This document shows, in pieces, positions 39,626-61,669 of a DNA stretch of 64,000 nucleotides. Each line of letters opens with the position of its first letter. The first letter of the stretch is position 1. The position numbers and the translations under genes are program-made. Source of the stretch: Bradyrhizobium sp. CCBAU 53340 (GTDB lineage Bacteria; Pseudomonadota; Alphaproteobacteria; Rhizobiales; Xanthobacteraceae); the NCBI RefSeq assembly GCF_015291645.1, contig NZ_CP030055.1, positions 5,084,001-5,148,000 on the forward strand, in the 5' to 3' direction. The notes below the pieces were generated by a model. It saw nothing but the letters and a program-made list of their open reading frames with translations. It searched no databases and had not been told where the DNA came from.

Positions 39626-40876
39626 ATGTCGAAATGCAGTATTGGACTGCTCGCGCTGAGCAGCCTGTTTCTTTCAGGCGCCGCGATCGCCCAGGAAAAG
39701 ATCAAGGTAGGCGTGACGGCGACGCTCGAGGGCACCTACACGGTGCTCGGCGAGGACGGCATGCGTGGCCACCAGACGGCACTCAACGTGCTGGGCAAGA
39801 AGATCGGCGACAAGGAACTCGAATTTATCGTCGCCTCGACCGACGCGACGCCGGACTCCGCGGTACGCGCGGTCCGGAAGCTGATCGAGCAGGACAAGGT
39901 GCAGATCCTGCTTTCGCCACTCTCCGGCGACGAAGGCATCGCGGTCAAGAACTTTGCCAAAACCCATCCTGAGCTGACCTTCATCAACGCGGCATCGGGC
40001 GCGCAGGAAACGACCTATGTTGACCCTGCCCCGAACTTCTTCCGCTACAACATGGACGGTGCACAGTGGCAGGTCGGCCTCGGAAAATATGCCTATGAGG
40101 AGAAGAAGTATCGCAAGATCGCAACCGTCGGCGAGGACTATTCCTTCATCTACACCCAGGTATTCGGGCTCGTGCTCGAGTTCTGCGGTGCCGGCGGACA
40201 GGTCACCAACCGGCAGTGGGTGCCGCTCGGCACGAAGGACTTCGCCTCCGTCATTGCCGCCCTGCCCGACGATGTCGATGCCATTTATCTCGGGCTCGGC
40301 GGCGCGGATGCCGTCAATTTCCTCAATCAGTATCAGCAGGCCGGCGGCAAGGCGCATCTGATGGGCGGTTCCATCATGATCGACCAGACCATCCTATCGT
40401 CGAAGGGGAATGCCAAGAATGCCCTCATCGGCACCATCGCGGCGAGCGGCCAGGCCGACACCTGGGAGGACCCGGGCTGGCAAAAGTTCGTGAAGGCCTA
40501 TCAGGACGCTTTCCCGCCCAACAAGCGCTTCCCGAGTCCCTCGCTGCTGGCCACCAACTACTACGGCTCGACGATGGCGTTGATCCTCGCACTGCGTGAG
40601 GTCAACGGCGATCTCAGCGACAATCAGTCGAAGTTCAAGGCCGCGCTGGCCAAGATCGAGCTCGACGCGCCGAACGGCAAGATCAAACTCGACTCCAATC
40701 GCCAGGCGATCGGCACCAACTTCGTCACTGAAGTTGTCGATGATGGCAAGGGCGCGCTGTTCAGCAAGGTCGTGAAGGTCATTCCGAACGTGAACCAGAC
40801 GCTCGGTTATGATCCGGCTGTGTTCTCCAAGATCGGACTGCCGAGCCGAACCGTTCCGGAATGTAAGAAGTATTGA
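39626..40876 (+). CDS. Branched-chain-type ABC substrate-binding protein (LivK/AmiC-like)
   Basis: A 416-residue periplasmic-binding protein of the type I Leu/Ile/Val fold. Signal peptide MSKCSIGLLALSSLFLSGAA, then KVGVTATLEGTYTVLGEDG and the lobe sequence SDxTPD-like DATPDSAVRAVRKLIEQD. GGGAGGA precedes the ATG at 39626. It is separated from the membrane and ATPase parts only by the AraC regulator, so it likely gives that importer its specificity. In rhizobia such proteins bind many aromatic or amide ligands besides amino acids. Confidence 0.9.
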   Translation: MSKCSIGLLALSSLFLSGAAIAQEKIKVGVTATLEGTYTVLGEDGMRGHQTALNVLGKKIGDKELEFIVASTDATPDSAVRAVRKLIEQDKVQILLSPLSGDEGIAVKNFAKTHPELTFINAASGAQETTYVDPAPNFFRYNMDGAQWQVGLGKYAYEEKKYRKIATVGEDYSFIYTQVFGLVLEFCGAGGQVTNRQWVPLGTKDFASVIAALPDDVDAIYLGLGGADAVNFLNQYQQAGGKAHLMGGSIMIDQTILSSKGNAKNALIGTIAASGQADTWEDPGWQKFVKAYQDAFPPNKRFPSPSLLATNYYGSTMALILALREVNGDLSDNQSKFKAALAKIELDAPNGKIKLDSNRQAIGTNFVTEVVDDGKGALFSKVVKVIPNVNQTLGYDPAVFSKIGLPSRTVPECKKY

Positions 40877-40902
40877 CGCATCAGAACGACGACGCAACCG
40901 GG

Positions 40903-40927
40903 GAGCGACTCGCTGGCGCGGTCGCTC
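40903..40927 (+). terminator. Hairpin after the substrate-binding protein gene
   Basis: GAGCGAC (40903-40909) pairs with GTCGCTC (40921-40927) over an 11-base loop, 26 bases after the stop codon. There is no T run. It may partly separate transcription of the binding protein from the AraC gene. Confidence 0.35.
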
Positions 40928-41000
40928 TCCGCTCTTGCAATCTCGCCGGCGATGTTGAACGCTGGCTAACAAGGACAAAGAACATTCGGGAGGGGAAGGC

Positions 41001-41828
41001 ATGAGCCGTGCGCTCGCCGTCTTCCATGGCCGGTTCGGCCGGGCGACGGTTTATCAATTGAACCGCCCTTTCAATATTCACGCGCATCGCGAAGGTCATT
41101 TGATCTTCCATGTCGGCGGCATGCCCGCATGCATCGATGTGTCCGACGGACACTACGATCTCATCGAGTCCTCTGTCGTCGCGGTCAATCCATGGGAACC
41201 GCACAACTTCCTGCCGACCGATCTCGATGGCGGCGCCATCTTCTTCGTGCTCTACGTCAATGCCGAATGGTTTGCGCCCGATACCTCGGGCGCCGACCGC
41301 CTGCGTTTCGGCCGCACCCAGTTCAAACGCACGCCTGCTCTCGACAAGCACATCAGGCGCACCGCAGCGCTCGTGTGCGGCGCACCGTCGCTGTCGAGCC
41401 TCGATTCCGAGCTCCGGACGCTGATCGACATCTGTTATGACGAGAGCTGGCAGCAGGCCAAGATCGCGCGCGATCCACGCGCAAACGGTTCCGTCACCGA
41501 TTTTCGCGTGCGCAAATGCATCAAAATGATGTCGGAAAGCCCCGGCGCTGAGATCGAGCTCGACACCATCGCCCGCGAATCCGGCCTGTCGCGGCCGCAC
41601 TTCTACCGGCTGTTCCGCGTGCAGACCGGAGTCACCCCGAACCTCTATCTCAACACGCTGATCATGGAACAAGCACTCGAAGCATTGGTGGCGAGCGAGA
41701 CGCCAATCGCCGACATCGGCTTCGATCTCGGCTTCTCCTCGCAGAGCGGCTTCACCCGGTTCTTCGCTGCCAATGTGGGGATGGCTCCGACCGATTATCG
41801 TCGCGCGGCCAAGGTTTTGCGCGCCTGA
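41001..41828 (+). CDS. AraC-family transcriptional regulator
   Basis: A 275-residue regulator. The N-terminal cupin-like domain (AHREGHLIFHVGGMPACIDV, VAVNPWEPHNFLP) probably binds the inducer. The C-terminal double HTH is about residues 165-272 (LDTIARESGLSRPHFYRLFR, TPIADIGFDLGFSSQSGFTR). GGGAGG precedes the ATG. Standing at the head of the long downstream run, it is the most likely activator of the whole import-and-degradation block. Confidence 0.9.
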   Translation: MSRALAVFHGRFGRATVYQLNRPFNIHAHREGHLIFHVGGMPACIDVSDGHYDLIESSVVAVNPWEPHNFLPTDLDGGAIFFVLYVNAEWFAPDTSGADRLRFGRTQFKRTPALDKHIRRTAALVCGAPSLSSLDSELRTLIDICYDESWQQAKIARDPRANGSVTDFRVRKCIKMMSESPGAEIELDTIARESGLSRPHFYRLFRVQTGVTPNLYLNTLIMEQALEALVASETPIADIGFDLGFSSQSGFTRFFAANVGMAPTDYRRAAKVLRA

Positions 41829-42019: not shown

Positions 42020-43030
42020 ATGAGCCGCTTTGTCGAACGTCATCCCGCCTGGGCGCTGATCGCCATCATTGCCATTGCCGCCGTGCTCTGGCTGATCTTC
42101 GCGATATGGCCGCCGGGCCTCGAGGAGGCGATCGGGCGCAAGCGCGTCTTCCTCAACGCCGTCTTCAACGGCATCACGCTCGGTGGCCTCTACTTCCTCG
42201 TCGCCAGCGGCTTCACGTTGATCTTCGGCCTGATGCGCAACGTCAATCTCGCGCACGGCTCCCTGTATCTGTTCGGCGGCTATGTCGGGTATGCTATCAG
42301 CACGTCGACCGGCTCCTGGGTCCTCAGCTTCATCGTCGCGTTCATCCTGTCGGCTCTGGTCGGCGTCCTGCTCCAGGTCATCGTGTTCCGGCGCATGGAG
42401 GGACAAGATCTCAGGCAGACCATGGTCACGATCGGACTTTCGATCGTGTTCGCGGATCTCATGCTGTGGGCCTGCGGCGGCGACTTCTACCAGATCCAGA
42501 CGCCAAACTGGTTGATCGGTCCGGTGGAGCTGCCGTTGATCACAGCAATCAAATCCTCGGGCGAGCCGGTCTATCTTGGATATCCGCTGGTGCGCCTCGT
42601 GATCTTTGCCGCCTCCGTGGTGATCGGCATCGCGATGTGGCTCGCGCTGAACCGCACTCGGATCGGCATGATCATCCGCGCCGGTGTGGACGACCGCGAC
42701 ATCCTTGCCGCGACCGGCGTGCGCATCCAGCTCGTCTTCGTGCTGGTGTTCGCCTTCGGCGCCGGGCTTGCGGGCATCGCCGGCGTCGTCGGCGGCACCT
42801 TCCAGTCATTGTCGCCGGGCGAGGATATCCGCTTCCTGCTGGCTTCGCTCGTCGTCGTGATCGTCGGCGGCATGGGCTCGATCCCCGGTGCGGCGCTCGG
42901 CGCGCTGATCATTGGCCTCGCCGAGCAGCTCGGCTCGGTCTACATCCCGACCTATGCCATCGTCGTGACCTTCCTGATCATGGTGCTTGTGCTGGCCATC
43001 CGGCCGCAAGGCCTGTTGGCGAGGCGCTGA
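42020..43030 (+). CDS. livH: Branched-chain-type ABC permease, LivH
   Basis: A 336-residue inner-membrane permease with at least eight hydrophobic segments. LivH features are NGITLGGLYFLVASGFTLIF, NLAHGSLYLFGGYVG and VVIVGGMGSIPGAALGALII. Start 42020 (MSRFVERHPAW) is chosen over an upstream in-frame TTG. It begins about 190 bases after the AraC gene and starts an 18-gene run in which almost every gap is under 31 bases. Confidence 0.9.
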   Translation: MSRFVERHPAWALIAIIAIAAVLWLIFAIWPPGLEEAIGRKRVFLNAVFNGITLGGLYFLVASGFTLIFGLMRNVNLAHGSLYLFGGYVGYAISTSTGSWVLSFIVAFILSALVGVLLQVIVFRRMEGQDLRQTMVTIGLSIVFADLMLWACGGDFYQIQTPNWLIGPVELPLITAIKSSGEPVYLGYPLVRLVIFAASVVIGIAMWLALNRTRIGMIIRAGVDDRDILAATGVRIQLVFVLVFAFGAGLAGIAGVVGGTFQSLSPGEDIRFLLASLVVVIVGGMGSIPGAALGALIIGLAEQLGSVYIPTYAIVVTFLIMVLVLAIRPQGLLARR

Positions 43031-43031
43031 G

Positions 43032-44114
43032 ATGTCGCTCGCCCCTGACGTCCGCCTTGCCGCTCGTCCCGCTGCATCGGCGCAGCGGCCCGTACGGACA
43101 TGGCCGGAGATCAACAATCCCGCCGCCTGGGTCGTCGCGGTCATTCTCCTGATCATGCCGCTGATCGCCAACGGCTTCTTCCTGATCGAGATCTTCGCGA
43201 CGACGCTGATCCTCGGCATCATGGCGCTGAGCCTGATGTTCCTCGCCGGCTATGGCGGCATGGTCAGCCTGATGCAGCTCACCATCGCGGGCTTTGCCGC
43301 CTATATGGTCGCGGTGTTTGGCGTCAGCGGCAACGCCAATATCAGCCTCGGCTGGCCGTGGTGGCTCGCGGTGCCGATGGCGCTGGCGCTGGCAACGGCA
43401 TTCGGCACGCTCGGCGGCGCGCTCGCGGTGCGCACCGAAGGTATTTACACCATCATGATCACGCTCGCGATTGGAGCTGCCTTCTACTATTTCACCAACC
43501 AGAACTGGGCGATCTTCAACGGCCACACCGGTATCAACACCGTGGCCACCCCTCACTTCTGGGGCGTGAACTGGCGCGCCGACATTCCCTTTTATTATGT
43601 CGTGCTCGCAGTCGCCGCGCTCTGCTATTTCGCCGTCGAATATCTCTCACGCGCGCCATTCGGGCTTGCGCTACAGGGCGTACGCGACAATCCGCGGCGC
43701 ATGGCAGCGCTCGGCTTCAACGTCAATGCGCACCGCGTCGCCGCCTACGCATTCGCCTCCTTCGTAGCCGCGCTCGCCGGCGTCCTCCAGGTCTGGAACT
43801 ATCGCCAGATCTCGCCGGGCTCGGTGAGCGTCGGGGCCTGCATCGACGTGCTGATCATCGCCGTTGTCGGCGGCATCACGCGCCCGATCGGCCCCTTCAT
43901 CGGCGCTTTGATCTTCGTGCTGCTGCGGACCTTTGCGCTCGATGTTCTGATCCGGCTGGGTCTCGACGGCAACCGCTTCCGGCTGCTGATCGGGCTCGGT
44001 TTCCTCGCCATCGTGTTCTGGTCCTCGGATGGTGTCATCGGCCTGTGGCAGCATTGGCGTCGAAGCCAGCGTCCCCGCGACGATCGATCAGGTGGAGGGC
44101 ACCGTCGTGGATAG
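43032..44114 (+). CDS. livM: Branched-chain-type ABC permease, LivM
   Basis: A 360-residue LivM-type permease: ALSLMFLAGYGGMVSLMQLT, VRTEGIYTIMITLAIGAAFY, RAPFGLALQGVRDNPRRMAA and GGITRPIGPFIGALIFVLL. It begins one base after livH with GAGG upstream, and its last eight bases overlap livG. The C-terminal tail is unusually basic. It pairs with LivH to form the channel. Confidence 0.9.
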   Translation: MSLAPDVRLAARPAASAQRPVRTWPEINNPAAWVVAVILLIMPLIANGFFLIEIFATTLILGIMALSLMFLAGYGGMVSLMQLTIAGFAAYMVAVFGVSGNANISLGWPWWLAVPMALALATAFGTLGGALAVRTEGIYTIMITLAIGAAFYYFTNQNWAIFNGHTGINTVATPHFWGVNWRADIPFYYVVLAVAALCYFAVEYLSRAPFGLALQGVRDNPRRMAALGFNVNAHRVAAYAFASFVAALAGVLQVWNYRQISPGSVSVGACIDVLIIAVVGGITRPIGPFIGALIFVLLRTFALDVLIRLGLDGNRFRLLIGLGFLAIVFWSSDGVIGLWQHWRRSQRPRDDRSGGGHRRG

Positions 44115-44889
44115 TGTTGCCCAACGACTTTCCGCCGTCGGCGCCGGCGCCGCGCTGGAACTACGCGGCGTGACACGGCTGTTCGGCGCGCTCGCCGCAC
44201 TGACCGACGTCACCATCACCGTCCGCCCGGGCGAGCGGCGCGCCGTGCTCGGCTCCAACGGCGCCGGCAAGACCACCCTGTTCAACTGCATCACCGGCGA
44301 CTTTCCGCCCTCCTCCGGGACCATCCGCTTCTTTGGCGAGGACGTCACTCACTTCCCGCCCTATGAGCGCATCCGCCGCGGACTGCGCCGGACCTACCAG
44401 ATCTCGGCGCTGTTCCCCGGCCTCACCGTGCAGGACAACGTCTACCTCGCCTGCCGCGGGGTCTCGCGCGGGCGCTTCTCGTTCCTTCGCCCGGGACAGA
44501 ACGATGCCCTGATGCACGCGGCCGACAACCTCGTGCAGGCCGTGCATCTGTCCGCCGTCAAGGACCAGCGCGTGGCCGAACTCGCGCACGGCCAACAACG
44601 TCAGCTCGAGATCGCCCTCGCGCTCGCCGGCGCACCGCGTTTCATCCTGTTCGACGAGCCGGCCGCGGGCCTGTCACCGACCGAACGGGCCGAGCTGATC
44701 GAGATTCTGACCTCGCTGCCGGCGCATATCGGCTACATCATCATCGAGCACGATATGGACGTCGCCTTGCGCGTCGTCGAAAGCGTCACGATGATGCACA
44801 ACGGCCGCGTCTTCAAGGAAGGCCTGCCGCAAGAGATCCAGTCCGATCCCGAGGTGCAGGAACTCTATCTCGGAGGCGGCCATGAATGA
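44107..44889 (+). CDS. livG: Branched-chain-type ABC ATPase, LivG
   Basis: A 260-residue ATPase starting at GTG with GGAGG about nine bases upstream. Walker A is GSNGAGKTT (49-57), the signature is a variant LAHGQQRQLE, Walker B is FILFDEPAAG, and the switch His is in IIEHDMDVAL. The C-terminal LivG helix is short. Overlaps both neighbours by eight bases, showing tight coupling with livM and the livF fusion. Confidence 0.9.
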   Translation: MDSVAQRLSAVGAGAALELRGVTRLFGALAALTDVTITVRPGERRAVLGSNGAGKTTLFNCITGDFPPSSGTIRFFGEDVTHFPPYERIRRGLRRTYQISALFPGLTVQDNVYLACRGVSRGRFSFLRPGQNDALMHAADNLVQAVHLSAVKDQRVAELAHGQQRQLEIALALAGAPRFILFDEPAAGLSPTERAELIEILTSLPAHIGYIIIEHDMDVALRVVESVTMMHNGRVFKEGLPQEIQSDPEVQELYLGGGHE

Positions 44890-47092
44890 GGTTCGCCGCT
44901 CCACTGCCACGCTCGAGGTCCGCGGCCTCGACGTCTATTACGGTCACTCGCACGCGCTGCAAGGCGTCGACCTCACGTTGGAGAGCGGCGTGTTCTCGGT
45001 CGTCGGCCGCAACGGCATGGGCAAGACCACGCTGTGCAAGGCGATCATGGGTCTCGTTGGTGTGAGCGGCGGCTCGATTCGCGTGCGCGGCGAGGACATC
45101 ACGCGGCGTCCGCCGGCCCAGATCGCGCGGCTCGGCGTCGGCTATGTGCCGCAAGGCCGCCGTCTCTGGCGCTCGCTCAGCGTCGATGAGCATCTGCAGC
45201 TTGCCGGCGGGATGCGCTCCGGCGCCTGGACCGTCGAACGCATCTACGACACCTTCCCCCGCCTCGCCGAACGCAAGGGCCACGGTGGCGGCCAGCTGTC
45301 CGGCGGTGAGCAGCAGATGCTGGCCATCTCGCGCGCGCTGCTCACCAATCCGCATCTGTTGATCATGGATGAGCCGACCGAAGGGCTCGCGCCCGTCATC
45401 GTCGCACAGGTCGAGGAGATGCTGCTGCAGCTCGGCGAGGACGGCGACATGTCCGTGCTCGTGATCGAGCAGAACATCGGCGTCGCCACCGCCATCTCGC
45501 GCAATGTCGCGATCATGGTCAACGGCCGCATCAACCGCATCATCGACTCCGGCCGCCTCGCCGCCGACCGCGACCTGCAGCAGCGCCTGCTCGGCGTCGG
45601 GCTTCACGCCGAGCTCGAGCCGGACATCGACCTCGCCGAGTCCGGCCCAGAGGTGAAGCCCGCGCCTGCGCCGCAGCGTGACGGGCCGATCCGCATCTAC
45701 ATCTCCAACCCCACGCTCCCGACACGATGGTCGCAACCGGTGCCGATCGCCCGCATCGAGGCGTCGGCCCGCACCGTCTCCACGCAGGTCACGCGGCCGG
45801 AGGAGACGACACAGCGCAGGCGCGAGCCCGCTGCGACGCAGACTGCAGGCCCGCCCGTAGTGCTGGTCGTCGGCACGCTTGACACCAAAGCCACCGAGCT
45901 GCGCTTCATCCGCGACATCATCGCGGCAGCCGGCCTTCGCACACGGCTGGTCGACGTGTCGACCGGCGGCCGGCATTGCAGCTGCGATGTCTCCGCGCAG
46001 GAGATCGCGCTGAACCACGCCCGCGGCGGATCCGCCGTGTTCGGCGCCGATCGCGGAGCCGCCGTGACCGCGATGGCTGACGCGTTCGCCAATTGGCTGC
46101 GACGCCAGGACAACATTGCCGGCGTGATCTCGGCCGGCGGTTCGGGCGCGGCGTCGCTGGTTGCGCCGGCCATGCGCGCCCTTCCCGTCGGCGTGCCCAA
46201 GCTGATTATCTCCTCTGTCGCCTCCGGCGACGTCGGGCCCTATGTCGGCCCTGCCGACATCACGATGATGTACTCGGTGACCGACGTGCAGGGGTTGAAC
46301 TCGATCTCGCGTGTCGTGCTGGCCAACGGCGCCAATGCGATCGCCGGCATGGTCAAGGCAAGGCTCGATCAACGCGTCGCGACGGCGCGCCAAGCTGGCA
46401 GCCTGCCCTCGGTCGGCATCACCATGTTCGGCGTCACCACGCCGGCGGTGCAGAAGATCGCAGCCGAGCTGCGCGATGATTTCGAGTGCCTGGTCTTCCA
46501 TGCTACCGGCGTCGGCGGCCGCTCCATGGAAAAACTCGTCGAGTCCGGTCAGCTCTCGGGCGTTATCGACCTCACCACGACCGAGATCTGTGATCTCCTC
46601 ATGGGAGGCGTGTTTCCCGCGACGGAGGATCGCCTAGGCGCGATCATTCGCAGCCGCTTGCCTTATGTCGGCTCGGTCGGTGCTCTCGACATGGTCAATT
46701 TCGGCGCTCCCGACACCATTCCCGACCGCTACCGTGGCCGCAAATTCCACGTCCACAATCCGCAGGTGACGTTGATGCGGACGACGGCCGAAGAGAACGA
46801 ACGCATGGGCCGCTGGATCGCCGACCGCATCAACCAGATGGACGGCCCCGTCCGTTTCTTCCTGCCCGAGGGCGGCGTCTCCGCGCTCGATGCGCGAGGC
46901 CAGCCATTCTGGGACCCGGAAGCCGACGCCGCGCTGTTCCGCGCGCTGGAGCGCAACGTCCGACAGACCGCCAATCGCCAGCTCATTCGCATGCCCAAGA
47001 ACATCAACGATCCCGACTTCGCCGCCGCCGTCGTCAGTGCGTTCCGAACGCTGTTCGGCCGCACCGGCGCGCGGCGGAGACTAGCGAGGTAA
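44882..47092 (+). CDS. Fusion of LivF ATPase with Tm-1-like (UPF0261) ATP-binding domain
   Basis: A 736-residue two-part protein. Residues 1-240 are a complete LivF: Walker A GRNGMGKTT (42-50), YVPQGRRLW Q-loop, signature LSGGEQQ (139-145), Walker B LLIMDEPTEG, switch HisGln region VLVIEQNIGV. A Pro/Arg-rich linker covers about 245-323. Residues 324 to about 730 form a UPF0261/Tm-1-like domain (VVLVVGTLDTKATELRFIRD; ISAGGSGAASLVAP; FHATGVGGRSMEKL). Tm-1-type domains occur in the tomato virus-resistance protein beside a TIM barrel; here that barrel is the next gene. The reaction of the domain is unknown. No frameshift separates the halves. Confidence 0.88.
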   Translation: MNEVRRSTATLEVRGLDVYYGHSHALQGVDLTLESGVFSVVGRNGMGKTTLCKAIMGLVGVSGGSIRVRGEDITRRPPAQIARLGVGYVPQGRRLWRSLSVDEHLQLAGGMRSGAWTVERIYDTFPRLAERKGHGGGQLSGGEQQMLAISRALLTNPHLLIMDEPTEGLAPVIVAQVEEMLLQLGEDGDMSVLVIEQNIGVATAISRNVAIMVNGRINRIIDSGRLAADRDLQQRLLGVGLHAELEPDIDLAESGPEVKPAPAPQRDGPIRIYISNPTLPTRWSQPVPIARIEASARTVSTQVTRPEETTQRRREPAATQTAGPPVVLVVGTLDTKATELRFIRDIIAAAGLRTRLVDVSTGGRHCSCDVSAQEIALNHARGGSAVFGADRGAAVTAMADAFANWLRRQDNIAGVISAGGSGAASLVAPAMRALPVGVPKLIISSVASGDVGPYVGPADITMMYSVTDVQGLNSISRVVLANGANAIAGMVKARLDQRVATARQAGSLPSVGITMFGVTTPAVQKIAAELRDDFECLVFHATGVGGRSMEKLVESGQLSGVIDLTTTEICDLLMGGVFPATEDRLGAIIRSRLPYVGSVGALDMVNFGAPDTIPDRYRGRKFHVHNPQVTLMRTTAEENERMGRWIADRINQMDGPVRFFLPEGGVSALDARGQPFWDPEADAALFRALERNVRQTANRQLIRMPKNINDPDFAAAVVSAFRTLFGRTGARRRLAR

Positions 47093-53063: not shown

Positions 53064-54644
53064 ATGCTGGAATTGCGCAAGGACATTTTCGCCGACGAGC
53101 GCGACGATAACTTAAAGGAAATCGGCAAGGGCACGCAGCGGCAAGACATGCTCGGACATGTCACGGGCACCTCGAGCTATTTCAACGACCACAAGCTTCA
53201 GGGCATGCTGCATCTGAAGGTCGTGCGCTCGACGCAGGCGCACGCAAGGCTACGCCGTATCGACACCACGGAAGCGGAGCGCTCGTCGGGCGTACGGCGC
53301 ATCATTCGCGGCGCCGACGTGCCGCACAATCTCAACACGTTGCTCAGCCTGATCAACTTCGGCAAGGACGACGAGCCTTCGCTTGCGGTTGACAAGGTGC
53401 GCTATAAGGGCGAGCCGATCGCCGCTGTTGTCGCCGACAGCGAGCGCGAGGCGTTCGAGGCTGTCGCAAAGGTCAAGGTCGACTATGAGCCTCTTCCGGC
53501 GGTGTTCGACGTCGAGGACGCGCTGAAGCCGGGCGCGCCCGTGGTCAACGAGACCTATCCCAAAAACGCCTTCACCTATCACGACGTCTACGATCATCAA
53601 AAGCTGCGCTTCGGCGACGCCGATGCCGCGCTCGCGACCGCCGACCATGTGCTCGAGCAGCGCTACCAGATGTCGCCGATCGAGCACGCGCCGACCGAGA
53701 CCAATGGTGCCATCGCCGCGCCCGACGCCAATGGCCGCTATGTCGTCTACACCTCGACGCAGGCGCTGTTCTTCTCGGTCGATACTTGCGCCAAGATTCT
53801 GGACGTGCCTTCCAACACCTTCCACTTCATCGGCGGCACGGTCGGCGGCGGCTTCGGCGGCAAGGTGGATACGCTGACCGAACCGCTCGCCATCTTGGGG
53901 GCGATGCTAACCGGGCGTCCGGTCCGCTACGTGTTTGGGCGCGAGGAGGAAATGCAGTACGGCCCGCCGCGCGGCGCCGAACGCATCTTCATCAAGGACG
54001 GCGTGATGCGCGATGGCCGTATCGTCGCGCGCAAGATCCGCGCCTATTTCGACAGCGGCGCCTATACGCGGCTGTCGAGCTACGCCGCGGTCAAATGCGC
54101 AGCTCACCTGCCGGGCCCATATACCATCCCGAACGTCTACGGCGACGTCTATTGCGTCTTCACCAATCGAACGCCGGCCACCGCCATGCGCGGCTTCGGC
54201 GTCACCGCGATGGATTTCGCCATCGAATGCCAGATGGACAAGCTCGCAAACCTCATCGGCATGGACCCAATGGAGTTTCGTATCCTCAACGCTTACCGCG
54301 ACGGCGACATGAAGGCGCACCGGCGCGAGGCCAAAAACACGGCGCTGATCGAATGCGTTCAGGTCGCCGCTGAAAAAGCCAAATGGCCGATCCGCGACGA
54401 ATTCAGGCGCGCCTCCTCCCGCAAGGACGGTGGCGGCATCCGTGCCGCAATTCCGCCGACGCCAACGGAACCGCGGGCGCAGTCCGCTGCACCCGCGCAG
54501 CAGCGCACGACCTATGACCGCGCGCCCGTGACCGCGACGCGTGAACCGCCGCACGAGCCGCCCCCGCCTCCTCCGCCGCGCCCGACAGCGCCATCCCATG
54601 GCGCCACCCGCTTCTCCTCTGTCTTTGGCACCAGGAGACGTTGA
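53064..54644 (+). CDS. Molybdenum hydroxylase large subunit, N-terminal half
   Basis: A 526-residue protein equal to the front part of XdhB/CoxL-type large subunits: the aldehyde oxidase a/b hammerhead domain (about 30-145) and the first Mo-cofactor-binding domain with GGTVGGGFGGKVDTLTEPLA and AMRGFG (374-379). The active-site loop AMRGFG resembles xanthine dehydrogenases (AFRGFG) and lacks the AYxCSFR cysteine of true CO dehydrogenase. After about residue 465 it ends in a low-complexity Pro-rich tail (EPPHEPPPPPPPRPTAP), not seen in normal large subunits. The C-terminal half is the next gene. Confidence 0.9.
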   Translation: MLELRKDIFADERDDNLKEIGKGTQRQDMLGHVTGTSSYFNDHKLQGMLHLKVVRSTQAHARLRRIDTTEAERSSGVRRIIRGADVPHNLNTLLSLINFGKDDEPSLAVDKVRYKGEPIAAVVADSEREAFEAVAKVKVDYEPLPAVFDVEDALKPGAPVVNETYPKNAFTYHDVYDHQKLRFGDADAALATADHVLEQRYQMSPIEHAPTETNGAIAAPDANGRYVVYTSTQALFFSVDTCAKILDVPSNTFHFIGGTVGGGFGGKVDTLTEPLAILGAMLTGRPVRYVFGREEEMQYGPPRGAERIFIKDGVMRDGRIVARKIRAYFDSGAYTRLSSYAAVKCAAHLPGPYTIPNVYGDVYCVFTNRTPATAMRGFGVTAMDFAIECQMDKLANLIGMDPMEFRILNAYRDGDMKAHRREAKNTALIECVQVAAEKAKWPIRDEFRRASSRKDGGGIRAAIPPTPTEPRAQSAAPAQQRTTYDRAPVTATREPPHEPPPPPPPRPTAPSHGATRFSSVFGTRRR

Positions 54645-54645: not shown

Positions 54646-55668
54646 ATGACCAGGCATCGCGGACGCGGCATGGCGTCGATCAATTATCCCATCGGCATGA
54701 ACCTGGGCGGCGACCCGAGCCAGGCACTGGTCCACTCCAATCCCAGTGGCAAGTTCACGGTGGCGTTGTCGTCGATTGATCTCGGCCAGGGCATGAAATC
54801 GGTGACGCGGCAGATCTGCGCCGAAACGCTCGGCGTGCCCGTCGAAGACGTCTATGTCGATACTGCAGACTCCGACACGGGCCCGCACTGCATGGGCTCG
54901 TTCGCCTCGCGCGGCACCCACCGCGTCGGCAACGCCGTGATGGCCGCCGCCAGCGAAGCGCGCGGGGTAATGATGGAGGCGGCAGCCGAGGAGCTCGAGG
55001 TCAATGCCAACGATCTCGAAACCGATGGCCGCGGCAACATTCACGTCAAGGGCGCCCCGCATCGCTCGATCTCGACCAAGGATGTCGCGATCGCGGCGCA
55101 ATTCAAGCAGGGCAAGACCATCTCCGGGCGCGGCATCTTTCTCGTGCCGCTCTCCGACGTCGACCCCGAAACCGGCGAAATGTCACCGGCAACCTGTTAC
55201 GCCCACGCCTGCCTCGTCGCCGAAGTCGAGGTTGACGACGAGACCGGCGAGGTCGCGATGGTGCGGATGGACTCGGCCTACGAGCTCGGGCGCGCGCTCA
55301 ATCCGCGGCTCGTCGAGCAACAGCTGGTCGGCGGCGCCTGGATGGGCGTCAGTCATGCGCTCTACGAGACGCCCGAGCCGTACTATCCCGATCCCGTTCA
55401 TGGCCCGCGCGACTTCGTCGAATATCTGATGCCCGGCCCCGGCGACATCTGTCCGCACGACATCGCGGTGCTGGAGCGTCCTGCCCCTGATGGTCCGTTC
55501 GGCGCCAAGGGTCCCGGCGAGATGTGCGCCAACCCGGTGCTGCCGGCCGTTGCGAATGCGATCTTCAACGCGGTCGGCGTTCGGATCGACGAGCTGCCGA
55601 TCACGCCCGAGAAGGTGCTGCGCGCGATCAAGGCCCAGGGCGGTGCGCGGCCCCAGGCGCGACGCTAG
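54646..55668 (+). CDS. Molybdenum hydroxylase large subunit, C-terminal half
   Basis: A 340-residue protein equal to the rear Mo-cofactor domain: SIDLGQGMKSVTRQ with the Gln-Gly contact, HCMGSFASRGTHRVGNAVM, and the catalytic glutamate Glu292 in GAKGPGEMCANPVLPAVANA. It starts one base after the stop of the N-terminal half, in another frame. Together the halves have about 866 residues, a normal large-subunit size plus tail. All expected catalytic parts are present, so the split pair is probably functional as a heterodimer. Confidence 0.9.
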   Translation: MTRHRGRGMASINYPIGMNLGGDPSQALVHSNPSGKFTVALSSIDLGQGMKSVTRQICAETLGVPVEDVYVDTADSDTGPHCMGSFASRGTHRVGNAVMAAASEARGVMMEAAAEELEVNANDLETDGRGNIHVKGAPHRSISTKDVAIAAQFKQGKTISGRGIFLVPLSDVDPETGEMSPATCYAHACLVAEVEVDDETGEVAMVRMDSAYELGRALNPRLVEQQLVGGAWMGVSHALYETPEPYYPDPVHGPRDFVEYLMPGPGDICPHDIAVLERPAPDGPFGAKGPGEMCANPVLPAVANAIFNAVGVRIDELPITPEKVLRAIKAQGGARPQARR

Positions 55669-55678
55669 GGGATCAGTC

Positions 55679-56560
55679 GTGGCGGTTCGCAGCAACATCG
55701 TGGGGATCGACAGCCCGGAGGCGCTGGAGAAGGCGCTTCGCGCGGCCTATTACCTCGCCGATGAAGGCCTCGCGACTGCGGCCTATCTGGGTCTCGCGCT
55801 CGGCAAGCCACTGCTGCTAGAGGGCGCGCCGGGCGTCGGCAAGACGGAAGCAGCAAAGGCGATCGCCGCCGTGCTCGGCCGCCGCCTCATCCGCTTGCAA
55901 TGCTACGAGGGCATCGACGCATCTGCTGCGCTCTATGAGTGGAACTATCCGCGCCAGATGCTGGCGATCCGCCAGGCCGGCGACGAGAGCATCGACATCT
56001 ACGGCGAAACCTTCCTGATCGAGCGGCCGATGTTGGCCGCCCTCCGCGCGCCTGATTCCACAGTGCTGTTGATCGACGAAATCGACCGCGCCGACCAGGA
56101 ATTCGAGGCGTTCCTGCTCGAATTTCTCTCCGACTTCCAGATCTCCATTCCCGAGCGCGGCACGGTCCGCGCAGCTGAGCGTCCCGTGGTGGTGCTGACC
56201 TCGAACCGGACGCGCGACCTGCACGAAGCCTTGCGCCGCCGCTGCGTCTATCATTGGATCGACTATCCCACTGCCGAGCGGGAGGCGCGGATCATCATGA
56301 TGCGCGCATCCAGCGTCGCCGAAGCCACGGCCCGCGCTGTCGTCGCAGCCGTGGAGAAGCTGCGGCGCGAACCGCTCAGCAAGGCGCCGGGCATCGCCGA
56401 GGCTGTCGACTGGGCCGAGGCCGCGACGCTCCTCAACAGAGGCGGCGCGCGCTGGCCGGACGCATTCAAGCGCTCGATCGGCGTCGCGCTGAAGGACGAG
56501 GAGGATCTGCACTTCATCTCGCCGCGGCTCGACGCGATACTCGCGGAGGCGACCGCATGA
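55679..56560 (+). CDS. MoxR-family AAA+ ATPase (CoxD-like)
   Basis: A 293-residue AAA+ ATPase starting at GTG with AGGGGA upstream. Walker A is EGAPGVGKTE (48-57), Walker B VLLIDEIDRAD (around Asp133), sensor 1 VVLTSNRTRDLHEAL, and an arginine finger in LRRRCVYHW. CoxD-type ATPases mature the Mo/Cu or Mo active site of such hydroxylases together with a VWA protein. That partner follows with a four-base overlap. Confidence 0.9.
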   Translation: MAVRSNIVGIDSPEALEKALRAAYYLADEGLATAAYLGLALGKPLLLEGAPGVGKTEAAKAIAAVLGRRLIRLQCYEGIDASAALYEWNYPRQMLAIRQAGDESIDIYGETFLIERPMLAALRAPDSTVLLIDEIDRADQEFEAFLLEFLSDFQISIPERGTVRAAERPVVVLTSNRTRDLHEALRRRCVYHWIDYPTAEREARIIMMRASSVAEATARAVVAAVEKLRREPLSKAPGIAEAVDWAEAATLLNRGGARWPDAFKRSIGVALKDEEDLHFISPRLDAILAEATA

Positions 56561-57678
56561 GCACCGAACCGCAGATCCCGCGCGCCGCCCGCACCTTCAT
56601 TTCCTTTGTCGCGCTGCTGCGCGCCAACGGTTTCGCCGTTGCGCCGGAGCAGACCACCGCCTTTCTCGCCGCGATCGCGCTGCTGGGCCCGCGCGACCTC
56701 GACGACATCAGACAATGTGCTCTTGCCACCCTCGCCCCGCCGCCCGAGCGCCGCGCCACCTTCGACCGGCTGTTCGATCTGCATTTCCGCGGCAGCGAGG
56801 CCATTGTGCGCGACGACGAGAGCGAGGACGAGGAGACCGTCCGTCTCCAGGAGGAAGGCCGCGGCGACGAGGAACCCCTGCTCTCCGATGACGCCAATGA
56901 ATCCGGCCTCGCCGCGACGCGCACCGAGGCGCTGGTCGAGCGCCGCTTCGCGCAGCTCTCCACGATCGACGCGCTCCGGCGGCTGGCACGCGAGGCCCAA
57001 CGGCGCCTGCCACGGCGGCGCGGACACCGTCGCATGCGGGCGCGCCGCGGCCCCTTCGCCGATCTTCGCCGCACCCTGCGCGACAGTGTGCGCAGCGACG
57101 GCGAGATCTTGCGGCTCGGCCACATGAAGCGGCGCCAGCGCCCGCGCAAGATGCTGCTGCTGATCGACGTCTCCGGCTCGATGAAGAGCCGCACCGAGGA
57201 CAACATGAAGCTGGCGCATGCGCTGGTGCAGGCCACGGGCAACGTCGAGGTCTTCACCTTCGGCACACGGCTGACCCGCATCACGCGCGCGCTACGGCTG
57301 AAGCGGCGCGAGCAGGCGCTCAGTGCAGCGGCCCACCTCGTCAGCGACTGGGACGGTGGCACCCGCATCGGCGACGCGCTGCAAGCCTTTCTCGCAGTGC
57401 CACGATTCGGCGGATACGCCCGCGGCGCCGCCGTCATCGTCGTCTCCGACGGACTTGAGCGCGGCGAACCCGACGCTCTTCGCGATGCCGTCGCGACATT
57501 GTCGCGGCGTGCTTGGCGCCTGAGCTGGCTGACGCCGCTCGCCACCAGCCCGGGCTTCCGCCCGCAGACCGAGGCGCTCGTCGCGATCGAGCGCTTTGTT
57601 GACGATCTCGTCGACGGCGGATCGAGCGCCTCGATCGTCGCGCACATGCTGGCACTCGGACGAAGGAGAGCGGCGTGA
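56557..57678 (+). CDS. VWA-domain protein (CoxE-like)
   Basis: A 373-residue protein with an acidic segment at residues 85-115 (DDESEDEETVRLQEEGRGDE) and a VWA domain whose MIDAS starts at Asp204 (DVSGSMKS), followed by FTFGTRLTRITRAL, DGGTRIG and VVSDGLERG. CoxE works with the CoxD ATPase to insert or sulfurate the metal centre. It overlaps both neighbours by four bases. Confidence 0.9.
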   Translation: MSTEPQIPRAARTFISFVALLRANGFAVAPEQTTAFLAAIALLGPRDLDDIRQCALATLAPPPERRATFDRLFDLHFRGSEAIVRDDESEDEETVRLQEEGRGDEEPLLSDDANESGLAATRTEALVERRFAQLSTIDALRRLAREAQRRLPRRRGHRRMRARRGPFADLRRTLRDSVRSDGEILRLGHMKRRQRPRKMLLLIDVSGSMKSRTEDNMKLAHALVQATGNVEVFTFGTRLTRITRALRLKRREQALSAAAHLVSDWDGGTRIGDALQAFLAVPRFGGYARGAAVIVVSDGLERGEPDALRDAVATLSRRAWRLSWLTPLATSPGFRPQTEALVAIERFVDDLVDGGSSASIVAHMLALGRRRAA

Positions 57679-58559
57679 CCGAGATTGTCGATGGCCATCA
57701 CCACATCTGGCGGCAGGCCGATCTGCCCTGGCTGAGCGGCCCCATGCAGCCGCGCATCTTCGGACCCTATGAGCCGATCCGCCGCGATTATCCGATCCAG
57801 GAGTATCTCGACGATCTCAAGGGCACCGGCGTCTCCTGCTCGGTCTATGTGCAGACCAATTGGGCCAACGACCGTTTCGAGGACGAGGCAGCCTGGGTGC
57901 AGCGGACGGCCGATGAACACGGCTGGCCGCACGCCATCGTCGCCTATGCCAATTTCGCCGTCGATGACGTCCGCCCGCAGCTCGACCGCCTGAAGCGCTA
58001 TTCCCTCGTGCGCGGGGTGCGCATGCAGCTGCATTGGCACGAGAATCCGTTGTACCGCTTCGCGGCCCGTCAGGATCTCTGCACCGATCCCTTGATCCGC
58101 CGCAACATTGCGCGTCTGGCCGATTACGGCTGGAGCTTCGACCTGCAGGTCTTCACGCCGCAGATGCCCGATGCCGCGCGGCTGGCGGAATCCTCCCCCA
58201 ATGTGACGTTCATCCTGCAGCATGCCGGCATGCTGGAGGACCTCTCGCCTGCGGGACGCGCGGCCTGGCGCGCCGGGATGGCCCGGCTCGCGGCCCGCCC
58301 GAACGTGGTGTCGAAGCTGTCCGGGCTGGGAACCTTCATCCATCGCAACGATCCCGCGCATATCACCGCCGTGCTTACCGACACCGTCGCGATCTTCGGC
58401 GCCGAGCGATGCCTGTTCGGCTCCAACTTCCCGATCGAGAAATTGTGGACCAGCTATCGCGAACTCGTCAGTGCCTTTCGCGCAGCTGCCGCCCCATTCA
58501 ATGCGGCGCAGCAGGACGCGATCTTCAGGACGACGGCGATGCGCGTCTATCGGCTTTGA
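57675..58559 (+). CDS. Amidohydrolase family 2 (lactone/decarboxylase-like hydrolase)
   Basis: A 294-residue TIM-barrel hydrolase starting at GTG inside the coxE stop. Landmarks are the metal motif DGHHHIWR (His8-His10), LQLQ-type RGVRMQLHWHEN, FILQHAG and FGSNFPIEKLW. It resembles lactonases such as LigI or fuconolactone hydrolase (COG3618). It likely opens a lactone or hydrolyses a C-C/C-N bond formed after hydroxylation. The substrate is not known. Confidence 0.85.
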   Translation: MTEIVDGHHHIWRQADLPWLSGPMQPRIFGPYEPIRRDYPIQEYLDDLKGTGVSCSVYVQTNWANDRFEDEAAWVQRTADEHGWPHAIVAYANFAVDDVRPQLDRLKRYSLVRGVRMQLHWHENPLYRFAARQDLCTDPLIRRNIARLADYGWSFDLQVFTPQMPDAARLAESSPNVTFILQHAGMLEDLSPAGRAAWRAGMARLAARPNVVSKLSGLGTFIHRNDPAHITAVLTDTVAIFGAERCLFGSNFPIEKLWTSYRELVSAFRAAAAPFNAAQQDAIFRTTAMRVYRL

Positions 58560-58589
58560 CAGACAAGACACGAGACAGGAGGGCAACGA

Positions 58590-59438
58590 ATGGCGCTGGA
58601 GATCAAGATCCTGGACTATGGCGATATCGAGCTGGAATCGAGCTTTCTGGTGCTCGGCCGCGACTGCGGCCGCACCCGCCGCGTCCTCACGCTCGGCTTC
58701 CTGATCCTCGGCGGCAAATATCCTGTCGTGGTCGATACCGGCTACCGCTCCAACCAGATCATGGAGACGCTTGGCATGCGGGGGCTTCAATACCATGAGC
58801 ACATGATCGAGAACCAACTCGCCCGTCACGGCGTCCGCATGGGTGACGTGCGCTTCGTCTGCCACACCCATCTGCATATCGACCACGCCGGCAAGGATGA
58901 CCTGTTCCCGATGAATACGACCGTCGTCGTCAATCGCCGCGAGCTCGAATATTCGGTCTCCGGCCTGATGCATCCGCAATATCCGGCGCCCGACATCAAG
59001 CACCTGATCGACCGCCTGCACACCAAGAGCGCGCTGCGCTTTCTTGACCTCGAAATCACCGGCCCGATCGAGCTGATGCCCGGTGTTTATTGTGATGCCG
59101 CCAATGCCCATACCGAAGGCTCGATGAACGTCATTGTCGAGACTGCCGACGGCATCGCCACCATCTGCGGCGACGTGATCTACGACTTCAACGACCAGAT
59201 CGTCACGCCATTCAACGAAATCCACGACTGGGAGCCGCGCACGACGGGCAACCACGGCACCAGCAAGCGGGCGGAGAAGGCCTCGATCAAGAAGCTGCTC
59301 AGCAATTCCCGCTATCTGCTGCCGGTGCACGATCGCCCGGCCAAGATCGAAGGCGGCAACGTCGTCGGCCGGCTGCACGATCAGGTCCCCGGACCGATCG
59401 TGCAGTCCCTGCCCGCACGCAACTGGTTCCCGGCTTGA
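58590..59438 (+). CDS. Metallo-beta-lactamase-fold hydrolase, AHL-lactonase-like
   Basis: A 282-residue protein with the dinuclear-zinc motif HTHLHIDH (His92-His99, which includes HxHxDH), a downstream His in DAANAHTEGSMNV, Asp in ICGDVIYDFND, and His in YLLPVHDRP. It belongs to the group of N-acyl-homoserine-lactonase-like enzymes. In this operon its lactone is more likely a catabolic intermediate than a signal. Thirty bases after the amidohydrolase gene. Confidence 0.86.
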   Translation: MALEIKILDYGDIELESSFLVLGRDCGRTRRVLTLGFLILGGKYPVVVDTGYRSNQIMETLGMRGLQYHEHMIENQLARHGVRMGDVRFVCHTHLHIDHAGKDDLFPMNTTVVVNRRELEYSVSGLMHPQYPAPDIKHLIDRLHTKSALRFLDLEITGPIELMPGVYCDAANAHTEGSMNVIVETADGIATICGDVIYDFNDQIVTPFNEIHDWEPRTTGNHGTSKRAEKASIKKLLSNSRYLLPVHDRPAKIEGGNVVGRLHDQVPGPIVQSLPARNWFPA

Positions 59439-59461
59439 AGTATCCTTGAGGATATCGACCG

Positions 59462-61039
59462 ATGACGCACGTCACCTTGCGCTCCGAATTCGAGACCCTG
59501 ATCGACCCCTATGCGCCGGTCGCACAGATCGGAACGGGTTTTGATTTCACGGAAGGGCCGATCTGGCATCCGGTCGATCATTACCTCCTGTTCTCCGACA
59601 TGCCGGGCGACGTGCGCCGGCGCTGGGATGCGCGGCGCGGCGTCGCCGAGGTCAAACGTCCGTCGAACAAATGCAATGGCATGACCTATGATGCCGAGCT
59701 CAACCTGATCGTCTGCGAGCACGCGACCTCATCGCTCATCCGAGAGCGACCGGATGGACGACGCGAGGTCCTGGCCTCGCACTTCGGCGGACAGGAGCTC
59801 AACAGCCCCAACGACGTCTGCGTGCACTCGTCGGGCGCGATCTATTTCTCCGATCCCTGGTATGGCCGCATGCCGGTCTATGGCGTCGAGCGGCCGCGGC
59901 AGCTCGGCTTCCAGGGCGTCTACAGGGTGACACCCGGCAGTGAACCGAAGCTGGTGGTGGACCGCAATCTGTTCGACCAGCCGAATGGGCTCTGCTTCTC
60001 GCCCGACGAAAAGCTGCTCTATGTCAACGACACCGTGCAGGCGCTGATCCGCGTGTTCGACGTCAACGCCGACGGCACGCTGTCGAACGCACGGGTGTTC
60101 GCAAGTGGAATCCGCTCCGAGCTCGAGCCGGGCGTGCCCGATGGCATGAAGTGCGATCAGCACGGCAATATCTGGGTCACCGCGCCTGGCGGCGTCTGGG
60201 TTTATTCGCCGCGCGGCGAGCTGCTCGGAAAAGTCCGCGTACCCGAACTGGTTGCCAACCTCGCCTGGGGCGGACCGGATTTCCGCACGCTGTATCTGAC
60301 CTCGACGCACTCGGTCTATGCCATCCCGACCAAGACCGGACCGCGCCACGAGCCTTATATGAGCGGCAGGCGAGGCAGCAGCGGCGCTGCAAGCGCCCCC
60401 CCGATGGCCGCAGCCCCCATCCTGACCGACGGCGACATGCGGCTCGATCCCAGCCGCTGCGCGATGATCATCCAGGATCTCCAGAACGACGTCATCATGG
60501 ATGGCGGCGCGTTCGCCGAGTCCGGTGCCCCTGGCCATGCGAAGCAGCAACAGGTTGTGGAGAATGTCCGCCGTCTCGCCGAGATCGCACGAGCCCGCGG
60601 CGTCGTCATCATCCACGTCTGGTTCGTCGTCGAACCCGGCGCCCCTGGCGTTACGCTCAACGCCCCGCTGTTCGAGGGGCTGGTCGACAGCAAGGCGATG
60701 GTGCGGGGAAGCTGGGGCGCCGCCCCCGTCTCCGGCCTCGAGCCGCGGCCCGGCGATTTCGTCGTCGAGAAGATGCGGATGAGCGCATGGGAAGGCACGC
60801 GGTTGGAGACGATCCTCAAGGCCACGGGCCGCGACATGATCATCAATACCGGCGCATGGACCAACATGTCGGTCGAACACACGGCGCGGACCGGCGCCGA
60901 CAAGGGCTATTTCATGATCGTCCCCGAGGATTGCTGCTCGACGATGAATGCCGACTGGCACAGCGCCTCGATCAATTTTGGCATGCAGAACGTCGCCGTC
61001 GTGACCAAGGCCGATGCTGTCATCAGAGCGCTGGGATGA
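59462..61039 (+). CDS. Fusion of SMP-30/gluconolactonase with isochorismatase-like domain
   Basis: A 525-residue two-domain protein. Residues 1-300 are a beta-propeller lactonase (FTEGPIWHPVDHYLLFSDMP; QELNSPNDVCVHSSGAIYFS; VPDGMKCDQHGNIWV), with Glu, Asn and Asp metal-site residues in place. A Ser/Ala/Gly/Pro linker follows (about 303-320). Residues 325-525 are an isochorismatase-like cysteine hydrolase: Asp in IIQDLQND, Lys in VVEKMRMSAW, but the normal catalytic cysteine (TNVCVE) is serine, Ser470 in TNMSVEHTAR. That half may be inactive or have changed chemistry. Confidence 0.87.
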   Translation: MTHVTLRSEFETLIDPYAPVAQIGTGFDFTEGPIWHPVDHYLLFSDMPGDVRRRWDARRGVAEVKRPSNKCNGMTYDAELNLIVCEHATSSLIRERPDGRREVLASHFGGQELNSPNDVCVHSSGAIYFSDPWYGRMPVYGVERPRQLGFQGVYRVTPGSEPKLVVDRNLFDQPNGLCFSPDEKLLYVNDTVQALIRVFDVNADGTLSNARVFASGIRSELEPGVPDGMKCDQHGNIWVTAPGGVWVYSPRGELLGKVRVPELVANLAWGGPDFRTLYLTSTHSVYAIPTKTGPRHEPYMSGRRGSSGAASAPPMAAAPILTDGDMRLDPSRCAMIIQDLQNDVIMDGGAFAESGAPGHAKQQQVVENVRRLAEIARARGVVIIHVWFVVEPGAPGVTLNAPLFEGLVDSKAMVRGSWGAAPVSGLEPRPGDFVVEKMRMSAWEGTRLETILKATGRDMIINTGAWTNMSVEHTARTGADKGYFMIVPEDCCSTMNADWHSASINFGMQNVAVVTKADAVIRALG

Positions 61040-61042
61040 GCC

Positions 61043-61669
61043 GTGGCGAAGCTCCTGCATCTGTCCTGCTCGCCCCGCGCAGAGTCCGAGTCCAGTGCCG
61101 GAGCTGGCGTCTTTCTTGACAGCTTCCGTCAGACCCGGCCGGATTGGGACGTCGATGTCGTGGACATCTGGCGCGAATCGATGCCGGAATTCGCAGGCCC
61201 CATTGTCGAGGCCAAGTATGCGCGCATGAAGGAGCAGTCTTTCAACGAAGCGCAACGTCACGGCTTCGCCGAAGCCGAACGAATGGCGCTGCGCTTTTCG
61301 CTCGCCGATCGGGTTCTGATCTCGACCCCGATGTGGAACTTCGGCATCCCCTACAAGCTCAAGCAGTGGTTCGACATCATCGTCCAGCCGGGCCTCACCT
61401 TTCGCTTCGATCCGTTGCAGGGTTATTTGCCGCTGCTGAATGACCGGCCGACGCTGGTCATCCTTGCCAGCGGCAGCGACTTCGCCACCGGCATGAACCG
61501 TGGCCGCATCGACATGGCAACGCCTTATCTGCGGGAAATCCTGCGCTTTATCGGAATCAGCAATGTCCGCTTCGTGCTGATCGGTCCAACCATTGGACCG
61601 CAGCAGCCGATCCATGCTGCCCGCGAAAGGGCTTATCGACGCCTCGCTGCAATGGCCGCGACTTTCTAA
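61043..61669 (+). CDS. FMN-dependent NADH-azoreductase/quinone reductase
   Basis: A 208-residue flavodoxin-fold enzyme starting at GTG, three bases after the fusion gene. Motifs are HLSCSPRAESESS for FMN phosphate and STPMWNFGIPYKLKQWFD, typical of AzoR. It reduces quinones or azo bonds with NAD(P)H. As last gene of the run, it may deal with a quinone-like product or recycle an electron acceptor of the hydroxylase. Confidence 0.87.
   Translation: MAKLLHLSCSPRAESESSAGAGVFLDSFRQTRPDWDVDVVDIWRESMPEFAGPIVEAKYARMKEQSFNEAQRHGFAEAERMALRFSLADRVLISTPMWNFGIPYKLKQWFDIIVQPGLTFRFDPLQGYLPLLNDRPTLVILASGSDFATGMNRGRIDMATPYLREILRFIGISNVRFVLIGPTIGPQQPIHAARERAYRRLAAMAATF

Follow-up and report, generated by a model that had tools for sequence, protein, structure and literature searches.

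We analyzed a 64,000-nucleotide stretch of DNA, hereafter the window, from the 8.7-Mb genome of Bradyrhizobium sp. CCBAU 53340 (contig NZ_CP030055.1, positions 5,084,001 to 5,148,000), focusing on a 22-kb gene cluster for a Liv-type importer, a giant flotillin and a molybdenum (Mo) hydroxylase whose Mo subunit is divided between two genes. Eighteen genes of this cluster, from that of a LivH-type permease (starting at 42020) to that of a flavodoxin-fold reductase (ending at 61669), lie on the plus strand; no gap between them exceeds 30 bases, several of them overlap, and genes for a binding protein (39626-40876) and an AraC-family regulator (41001-41828; PF12833, 1e-21) precede them on the same strand. 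These coordinates agree with an initial annotation of the window, and Pfam scans of 20 genes of the locus, the source of the domain calls given here, recover the parts it had listed: the importer, both halves of a Tm-1-like protein, the flotillin, two SRPBCC proteins, the FAD, iron-sulfur (FeS) and split Mo subunits, a MoxR-VWA pair, three hydrolase genes and a reductase. Scans for sigma-70 promoters and terminators gave site numbers not above those of shuffled sequence.

The importer has all the components of the Liv (HAAT) type, namely a periplasmic substrate-binding protein (PF13458, 2e-48), LivH-type (42020-43030; PF02653, 5e-34) and LivM-type (43032-44114; PF02653, 4e-34) permeases with BPD_transp_2 domains, and two ATPases. 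The LivG ATPase (44107-44889; PF00005, 2e-29, and PF12399) was assigned an inferred start at GTG 44107 from the sequence, as was the second SRPBCC protein at GTG 51304. The LivF ATPase forms the front of the first of two gene fusions in the locus, the 736-residue LivF::UPF0261 (44882-47092; PF00005, PF06792 and PF23189 above cut-off), which carries the N-terminal domain of a Tm-1-like protein behind LivF. The next gene encodes the C-terminal half, a PEP-hydrolase-like TIM barrel (47096-47929; PF09370, 2e-129; 2p10, E 2e-119), and both halves of the Tm-1-like pair score above the Pfam cut-off; the initial annotation had named both, but the N-terminal half is fused to LivF and is not a separate gene. 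The giant flotillin that follows (47955-50852; 965 residues) has the Band_7 and Flot domains of an SPFH2 flotillin (PF01145, PF15975) and a coil in which autocorrelation reveals repeats of 11 and 44 residues. For the two SRPBCC proteins (50862-51299, 6e-30; 51304-51747, 1.5e-18), Polyketide_cyc2 (PF10604) is the sole Pfam family found and Pfam CoxG was not reported, so that Pfam does not support their earlier label as CoxG-like.

Downstream lie the FAD subunit (51751-52569; PF00941, PF03450), the subunit with two [2Fe-2S] clusters (52575-53051; PF01799, PF00111) and the N-terminal (MoN, 53064-54644; PF01315, PF02738) and C-terminal (MoC, 54646-55668; PF20256, 6e-59) halves of the Mo subunit. 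Together they contain the domains of the xanthine-oxidase family (Ald_Xan_dh_C, MoCoBD_1, MoCoBD_2, two 2Fe-2S domains and an FAD domain) and a GxGE motif, the glutamate of which is catalytic in Mo hydroxylases of this family. GxGE in MoC, and GGGFGGK and AMRGFG in MoN, are kept in 25 of 25 sequences, mostly from Bradyrhizobium. The best solved match of both halves is 3hrd (chain A for MoN, chain B for MoC), whose Mo chains are divided at the same boundary. A frameshift as the cause of the split was ruled out because MoN and MoC are separate genes in all 20 relatives first examined and in an archaeon. The archaeal example, on a plasmid of the haloarchaeon Salinigranum rubrum (L241), is a split Mo hydroxylase accompanied by SRPBCC and cyclase-family genes, and its Mo halves are 51% and 61% identical to those of the window. 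CO dehydrogenase was rejected as the identity of the enzyme: TIGR02416 gives 178 bits for the N-terminal and 113 for the C-terminal half against a cut-off of 991, and the active-site loop of CoxL, which carries a cysteine in CO dehydrogenase, reads AMRGFG in all 25 sequences. Xanthine dehydrogenase was likewise rejected, since the NF043082 scores of the two halves (287 and 155 bits), which are depressed by the split of the Mo subunit, fall below the cut-off of 780 even when summed. The Mo genes are followed by those of a CoxD/MadB-like MoxR-type AAA+ ATPase (55679-56560; PF07728; NF047784, 270 of 475 bits) and a CoxE/MadC-like VWA protein (56557-57678; PF05762, 1e-46).

The remaining genes encode a COG3618-like Amidohydro_2 lactonase or amidohydrolase (57675-58559; PF04909, 8e-49), a lactonase-like metallo-beta-lactamase-fold (MBL) hydrolase (58590-59438; PF00753), the second fusion protein of the locus, in which an SGL (gluconolactonase-like) domain is joined to an isochorismatase domain (59462-61039; PF08450, PF00857), and an accessory flavodoxin-fold NAD(P)H reductase (61043-61669; PF02525). 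In sets drawn mostly from Bradyrhizobium, the MBL protein keeps an intact HxHxDH in 23 of 23 sequences, the inspected SGL residues are kept in 24 of 24, and the amidohydrolase reads SN[FY]P in 23 of 23 at a site where its relatives often read SDxP. Isochorismatase-like cysteine amidases carry an Asp-Lys-Cys triad; here the aspartate and lysine are kept and serine stands at the cysteine position in 24 of 24 sequences, and the SGL::isochorismatase protein possibly catalyzes a different reaction. The hydrolases score far below curated NCBIfam cut-offs (for the amidohydrolase, NF052480 at 104 of 400 bits). The initial annotation had seen here a locus for import and degradation with a split Mo hydroxylase and lactonase-like hydrolases that would open a lactone or an amide. 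The locus and the lactonase-type domains stand, with SGL and isochorismatase as one gene, and the opening of an amide is doubtful because of the serine at the cysteine position. The best solved match of the binding protein, 4zpj, is named just as an extracellular ligand-binding receptor, and the solved relatives of the MBL protein include lactonases of N-acyl-homoserine lactones (AHLs). Because of this MBL protein, and because the scaffold type without the Mo enzyme occurs in Variovorax paradoxus VAI-C, which uses AHL, we considered AHL degradation and found no direct support for it.

The cluster is conserved well beyond this strain, and its confinement to one strain, which would have refuted the initial annotation, is thereby ruled out. 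A flotillin-alignment search of genome contigs gave a near-relative set (the best 80 of 360 relatives), of which 66 loci had full 10-kb flanks; in all 66 (65 labelled Bradyrhizobium and one labelled Frankia), the 19 genes from the binding protein, whose place never varies, to SGL::isochorismatase are identical in order and strand. The nearest named relatives are Bradyrhizobium. Among 20 chosen relatives (17 of the same genus and three from other families), gene order is the same at identities of 39-100%, apart from one genome without an amidohydrolase match (G020) and one cut at a contig end (G001), and the terminal reductase is present in 14 of the 19 able to show it. A nearly complete fusion is present in 26 of 35 other genomes of the genus and in 3 of 24 other genomes, and in a further genome (G059, 25th-family) it lies in two contig pieces. 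Other families, and plasmids of Shinella and Yoonia, also carry the cluster almost complete, the Shinella copy without an MBL match. In a tree, the copy of one genome of the genus (G012) groups with those of other families, which suggests transfer. MoN matches occur in 36 of 199 genomes of an order sample (E<=1e-140) and in 8 of 385 genomes of a class sample of Alphaproteobacteria (E<=1e-150). The fetched loci cover the class sample without G772.

Several genes around these clusters differ among lineages. Many clusters outside Bradyrhizobium (L059-L062, L192, L193, L202, L205, L226) have an Fe-ADH-like gene between the binding protein and AraC, with 4-hydroxybutyrate dehydrogenase as its best NCBIfam match, below cut-off, and the Yoonia cluster ends with a fumarylacetoacetate (FAA) hydrolase and short-chain dehydrogenases/reductases. 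In the window, a separate minus-strand pair of an ABC permease and an SBP_bac_1 binding protein lies upstream (36231-38434) and a glyoxalase-family gene downstream (63148-63582).

The distribution of the genes shows that the locus is modular: its scaffold module and its enzyme module each occur apart elsewhere. The scaffold module comprises the Liv importer with LivF::UPF0261, the Tm-1 C-terminal half, the flotillin and the SRPBCC proteins. Of the 385 genomes of the class sample, 20 match the fusion model (E<=1e-180) and 18 the cluster-type flotillin (E<=1e-130); all 18 flotillin genomes also carry the fusion, at most 1 kb away by coordinates. Of the two additional genomes matched by the fusion model, G710 has a UPF0261 standing alone and G756 a contig of 3.4 kb that breaks off behind the fusion; the co-occurrence has a Fisher probability of 3e-31, or 5e-30 when that contig is counted against it, in genomes that are not independent of one another. 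The Tm-1 C-terminal half lies between fusion and flotillin in most loci and elsewhere in the cluster in G564. Six of the 18 genomes have MoN at E<=1e-150 and 12 do not. Our set of 14 loci without the Mo enzyme consists of 11 of these 12 genomes together with G112, G179 and a Variovorax plasmid (L238 is cut). In these loci the scaffold module is accompanied by quinone-reductase and hydrolase genes, with a quinone-reductase domain (Qor) after the second SRPBCC protein in 13 of the 14; an alpha/beta hydrolase and an amidohydrolase were found in 13 loci each and an FAA hydrolase in 11. In two loci, both checked with Pfam, the second SRPBCC protein and the quinone reductase are one protein.

The enzyme module consists of the FAD, FeS and two-piece Mo subunits, MoxR, VWA and the amidohydrolase, and it occurs in the same order in Sinorhizobium BG8, Nonomuraea and four genomes of the order sample (L264, L265, L266, L268), with flotillin, fusion and Tm-1 C-terminal half not found in the fetched stretches of these six. 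Because both modules stand apart in other genomes, the cluster in the window looks like a merger of the two. Where the scaffold is missing, the amidohydrolase gene still keeps its place behind the Mo enzyme, which suggests that this hydrolase acts on the Mo product.

Related arrangements occur around other Tm-1-like pairs. Thermomicrobium roseum (L195:9866-27075) has a Liv importer, an unfused UPF0261, a TIM barrel, a cyclase, an FAA hydrolase and a PEP-utilising protein pair, with an undivided Mo hydroxylase further on and no flotillin match found in the stretch. Pairs on rhizobial, Terrarubrum and Qingshengfaniella plasmids (L197-L199) adjoin sugar-type ABC importers, cupins and Gfo/Idh/MocA oxidoreductases, surroundings that hint at a general catabolic role of Tm-1-like pairs.

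Past its last domain (about residue 445), MoN continues into a tail composed of a Pro/Ala-rich tether (54396-54602), recognized by composition and alignment and freely varying over 67-156 residues in ten diverse sequences, and a conserved C-terminal peptide (54603-54641, ending RFSSVFGTRRR). Comparison of sequences gives the ending as RFSS[VIL][FS]GxRRR, with variants that include RFISGxRRR. The tail is present in 69 of 70 readable loci of the near-relative set, and in another set the flotillin-linked MoN end in RRR in 15 of 15 cases, 14 of which have RF. No tail was found in 12 of 12 split MoN without a flotillin in the fetched stretch (L219, L221, L222, L241-L244, L264-L268), a set from which two undivided Mo enzymes, both tail-less, were left out (L195, L230). 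Among these controls, L221 and L222 lie at contig ends in a genome (G624) without a cluster flotillin at E<=1e-130, L244 is only 39% identical, and L242 is in two frames. The last is the MoN of Sinorhizobium sp. BG8 (L242:14001-15367), the neighbors of which are intact, so that a frameshift or a sequencing error is possible. In a tree, a single branch (100/100, one change) separates all 30 tailed rows from the others, and L242 and L264 are nearest to them. As the tailed MoN form one clade, the tail probably has a single origin, and the counts of tails are repeated observations of one event and its retention.

A second short motif lies in the divergent linker between LivF and UPF0261, which reads T-R-W-S in the window (45722-45733). 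RW is present in 123 of 123 readable linkers, mostly as [TN]-R-W-[SNTG], with the other positions diverging and stops in none. These 123 rows include 118 distinct linkers, with some genomes entered twice under two names, and 96 read PTRWSQ; 28 rows (27 loci, two rows being one genome) lie outside near Bradyrhizobium. The flotillin itself differs with its company, at 872-1166 residues in 22 Mo-type loci versus 558-734 in the 14 non-Mo loci, a comparison that leaves out L274, L276, L280, L281 and most Bradyrhizobium. Modularity, the MoN tether with its terminal peptide and the LivF-linker motif are additions to what the initial annotation contained.

From these data we propose the following pathway. 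The Liv-type importer would take up a small organic compound, and LivF, because it carries the Tm-1 N-terminal domain, would anchor the two Tm-1 enzymes to the membrane's inner face. The giant flotillin would act as a membrane scaffold beside the importer and, by analogy with known flotillin structures, may form a membrane cage. MoxR-VWA, like CoxD and CoxE, would mature the two-piece Mo hydroxylase, which the Pro-rich tether and the RFSSxxGxRRR peptide would hold at the scaffold; in encapsulin-like systems, a terminal cargo peptide binds the shell or scaffold in this way. By oxidizing a ring C-H, an aldehyde or a lactol, the hydroxylase may produce a lactam or lactone. Opening of this product would fall to the amidohydrolase, MBL and SGL proteins, as judged from their families and from the association of amidohydrolase and Mo enzyme that persists in loci without flotillin, and the SRPBCC proteins may carry substrate or link the enzyme to quinones. 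We are fairly confident that import, Mo oxidation and hydrolysis form one unit, and we lean slightly toward a single catabolic unit to which the scaffold is tied in some form. That MoN docks to the flotillin is a tentative proposal about which we are rather doubtful. Still more speculative is a flotillin-cage metabolon joining the importer to the first enzymes, in which related arginine-aromatic peptides on disordered stretches of LivF::UPF0261 (TRWS) and of the Mo hydroxylase (RFSS) dock to the same scaffold, the coil is longer for Mo cargo and enzyme sets are exchangeable, with the Mo hydroxylase in the window and an SRPBCC-quinone reductase plus hydrolases in other loci.

Several observations weigh against the proposed pathway and its scaffold. 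A near relative (L091) lacks the tail, its MoN ending in unrelated letters, and the tailed MoN of L274 lacks RF. The link between tail and flotillin is probably a single event followed by retention and does not amount to many tests, and the likeness of RFS to RWS covers three residues only and may be due to chance. In G112 a tail-less Mo module lies elsewhere in a genome with a flotillin scaffold, in G558 an undivided, tail-less Mo enzyme (32% identical) adjoins the scaffold on the opposite strand, and the scaffold locus of G375 has a long flotillin (960 residues) and no Mo enzyme. This G375 locus (L203/L204) contains LivF fused to a degenerate UPF0261, two SRPBCC-like genes, an MBL gene and an aldehyde-dehydrogenase-like gene besides the long flotillin, with no match to the Tm-1 C-terminal half or the Mo enzyme; its linker, LTRWSA, was left out of the count because its UPF0261 part is too divergent.

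The alternative that survives best, although we consider it unlikely, is an ordinary catabolic operon: importer, Mo hydroxylase and hydrolases would share a pathway, the flotillin would only contribute to the overall organization of the membrane, and the MoN tail would bind a local partner such as MoC, another subunit or, through RRR, membrane lipid. The enzyme module occurs without flotillin, so the Mo enzyme does not need it, a basic C-terminus could bind lipid, and the tail probably arose once, all of which fit this alternative; it accounts less readily for fusion and flotillin occurring in the identical 18 of 385 genomes, and for the absence of the tail from all 12 split enzymes in which MoC is present and no flotillin adjoins. 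Detoxification, in which the locus would dispose of a reactive lactone, quinone or aldehyde of plant or microbial origin and the scaffold would keep the reactive intermediate contained, seems improbable to us: quinone-reductase-like genes in both flotillin types (Flavodoxin_2 in 14 of 19, Qor in 13 of 14 non-Mo loci), three lactonase-type folds and AHL lactonases among the MBL relatives are in its favor, but an importer of the high-affinity type points to nutrient use. The tail could also mark MoN for recognition by the maturation pair MoxR-VWA, whose genes come after the Mo genes in the Mo-type flotillin loci that reach far enough; we give this little credence, since six of the 12 tail-less split enzymes (L242, L243, L264, L265, L266, L268) adjoin MoxR and VWA in the same order, which makes the pair an unlikely partner of the tail. 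A housekeeping CO dehydrogenase or xanthine dehydrogenase operon, despite an FAD/FeS/Mo architecture and MoxR-VWA pair that resemble cox clusters, is scarcely credible with both Mo halves far below the curated cut-offs and AMRGFG at the CoxL cysteine loop in 25 of 25 sequences; such a housekeeping role would have refuted the initial annotation.

If the scaffold reading is correct, a bacterial flotillin would be the platform on which exchangeable catabolic enzymes dock and are joined to a specific importer. Bacterial flotillins, the precise functions of which are said to be largely unclear, would thereby gain a concrete metabolic role, and the widespread Tm-1-like pair a context that allows importer, enzymes and substrate to be interpreted jointly.

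Comparison with known systems places most parts of the locus in familiar company. The structure 3hrd, the nicotinate dehydrogenase NdhFSLM of Eubacterium barkeri, likewise has its Mo subunit in two chains with the domain boundary of MoN and MoC, so the split itself, part of what the initial annotation had thought undescribed, is not new. Enzymes of that type act on nicotinate and have a selenido ligand. The large Mo chain of 3hrd, at 425 residues, is too short for a tether and terminal peptide, whereas MoN of the window has 526. The cox cluster of Oligotropha carboxidovorans (CoxMSL-DEFG) shares FAD, FeS and Mo subunits, MoxR (CoxD) and VWA (CoxE) with the window, which differs in its split Mo subunit, in having no CoxL-type cysteine loop and in SRPBCC proteins that are not Pfam CoxG; an XdhC-type gene was not found among the 20 window genes scanned. 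For CoxG, a role in recruiting the enzyme to the membrane has been proposed (excerpts of PMC4240915).

Tm-1-like proteins have both halves found in the window, and adjacent pairs are seen elsewhere; in the window the N-terminal half is fused to an importer ATPase. According to excerpts of PMC5028733, 491 of 504 bacterial genomes that have the TIM barrel also have UPF0261. A biochemical function of bacterial Tm-1-like proteins was not found in the open-access subset of the literature searched, where passages of two papers mention them in a mutation list (PMC12733950) and as a hit in a Brucella virulence screen (PMC2364660).

Giant SPFH2b flotillins of 800-1000 residues with an expanded coil, as described in excerpts of PMC2636767, resemble the window protein in size and coil. 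According to that paper, SPFH2 operons usually include NfeD as a partner, 17 genomes being exceptions, and the words ABC transporter, molybd and Bradyrhizobium are absent from it; the scan of 20 genes matched no NfeD-type partner. The human flotillins assemble into a cage on the membrane, and proteases can be enclosed by HflK/C cages (excerpts of PMC11260169, in which metabolic enzyme cargo is not mentioned). The window protein shares the SPFH and flotillin domains of human flotillin and differs in its greater length and in being encoded in a cluster with importer and enzyme genes. No description of this gene combination was found in the open-access literature searched, and we conclude that the parts of the system are known and that their combination is new.

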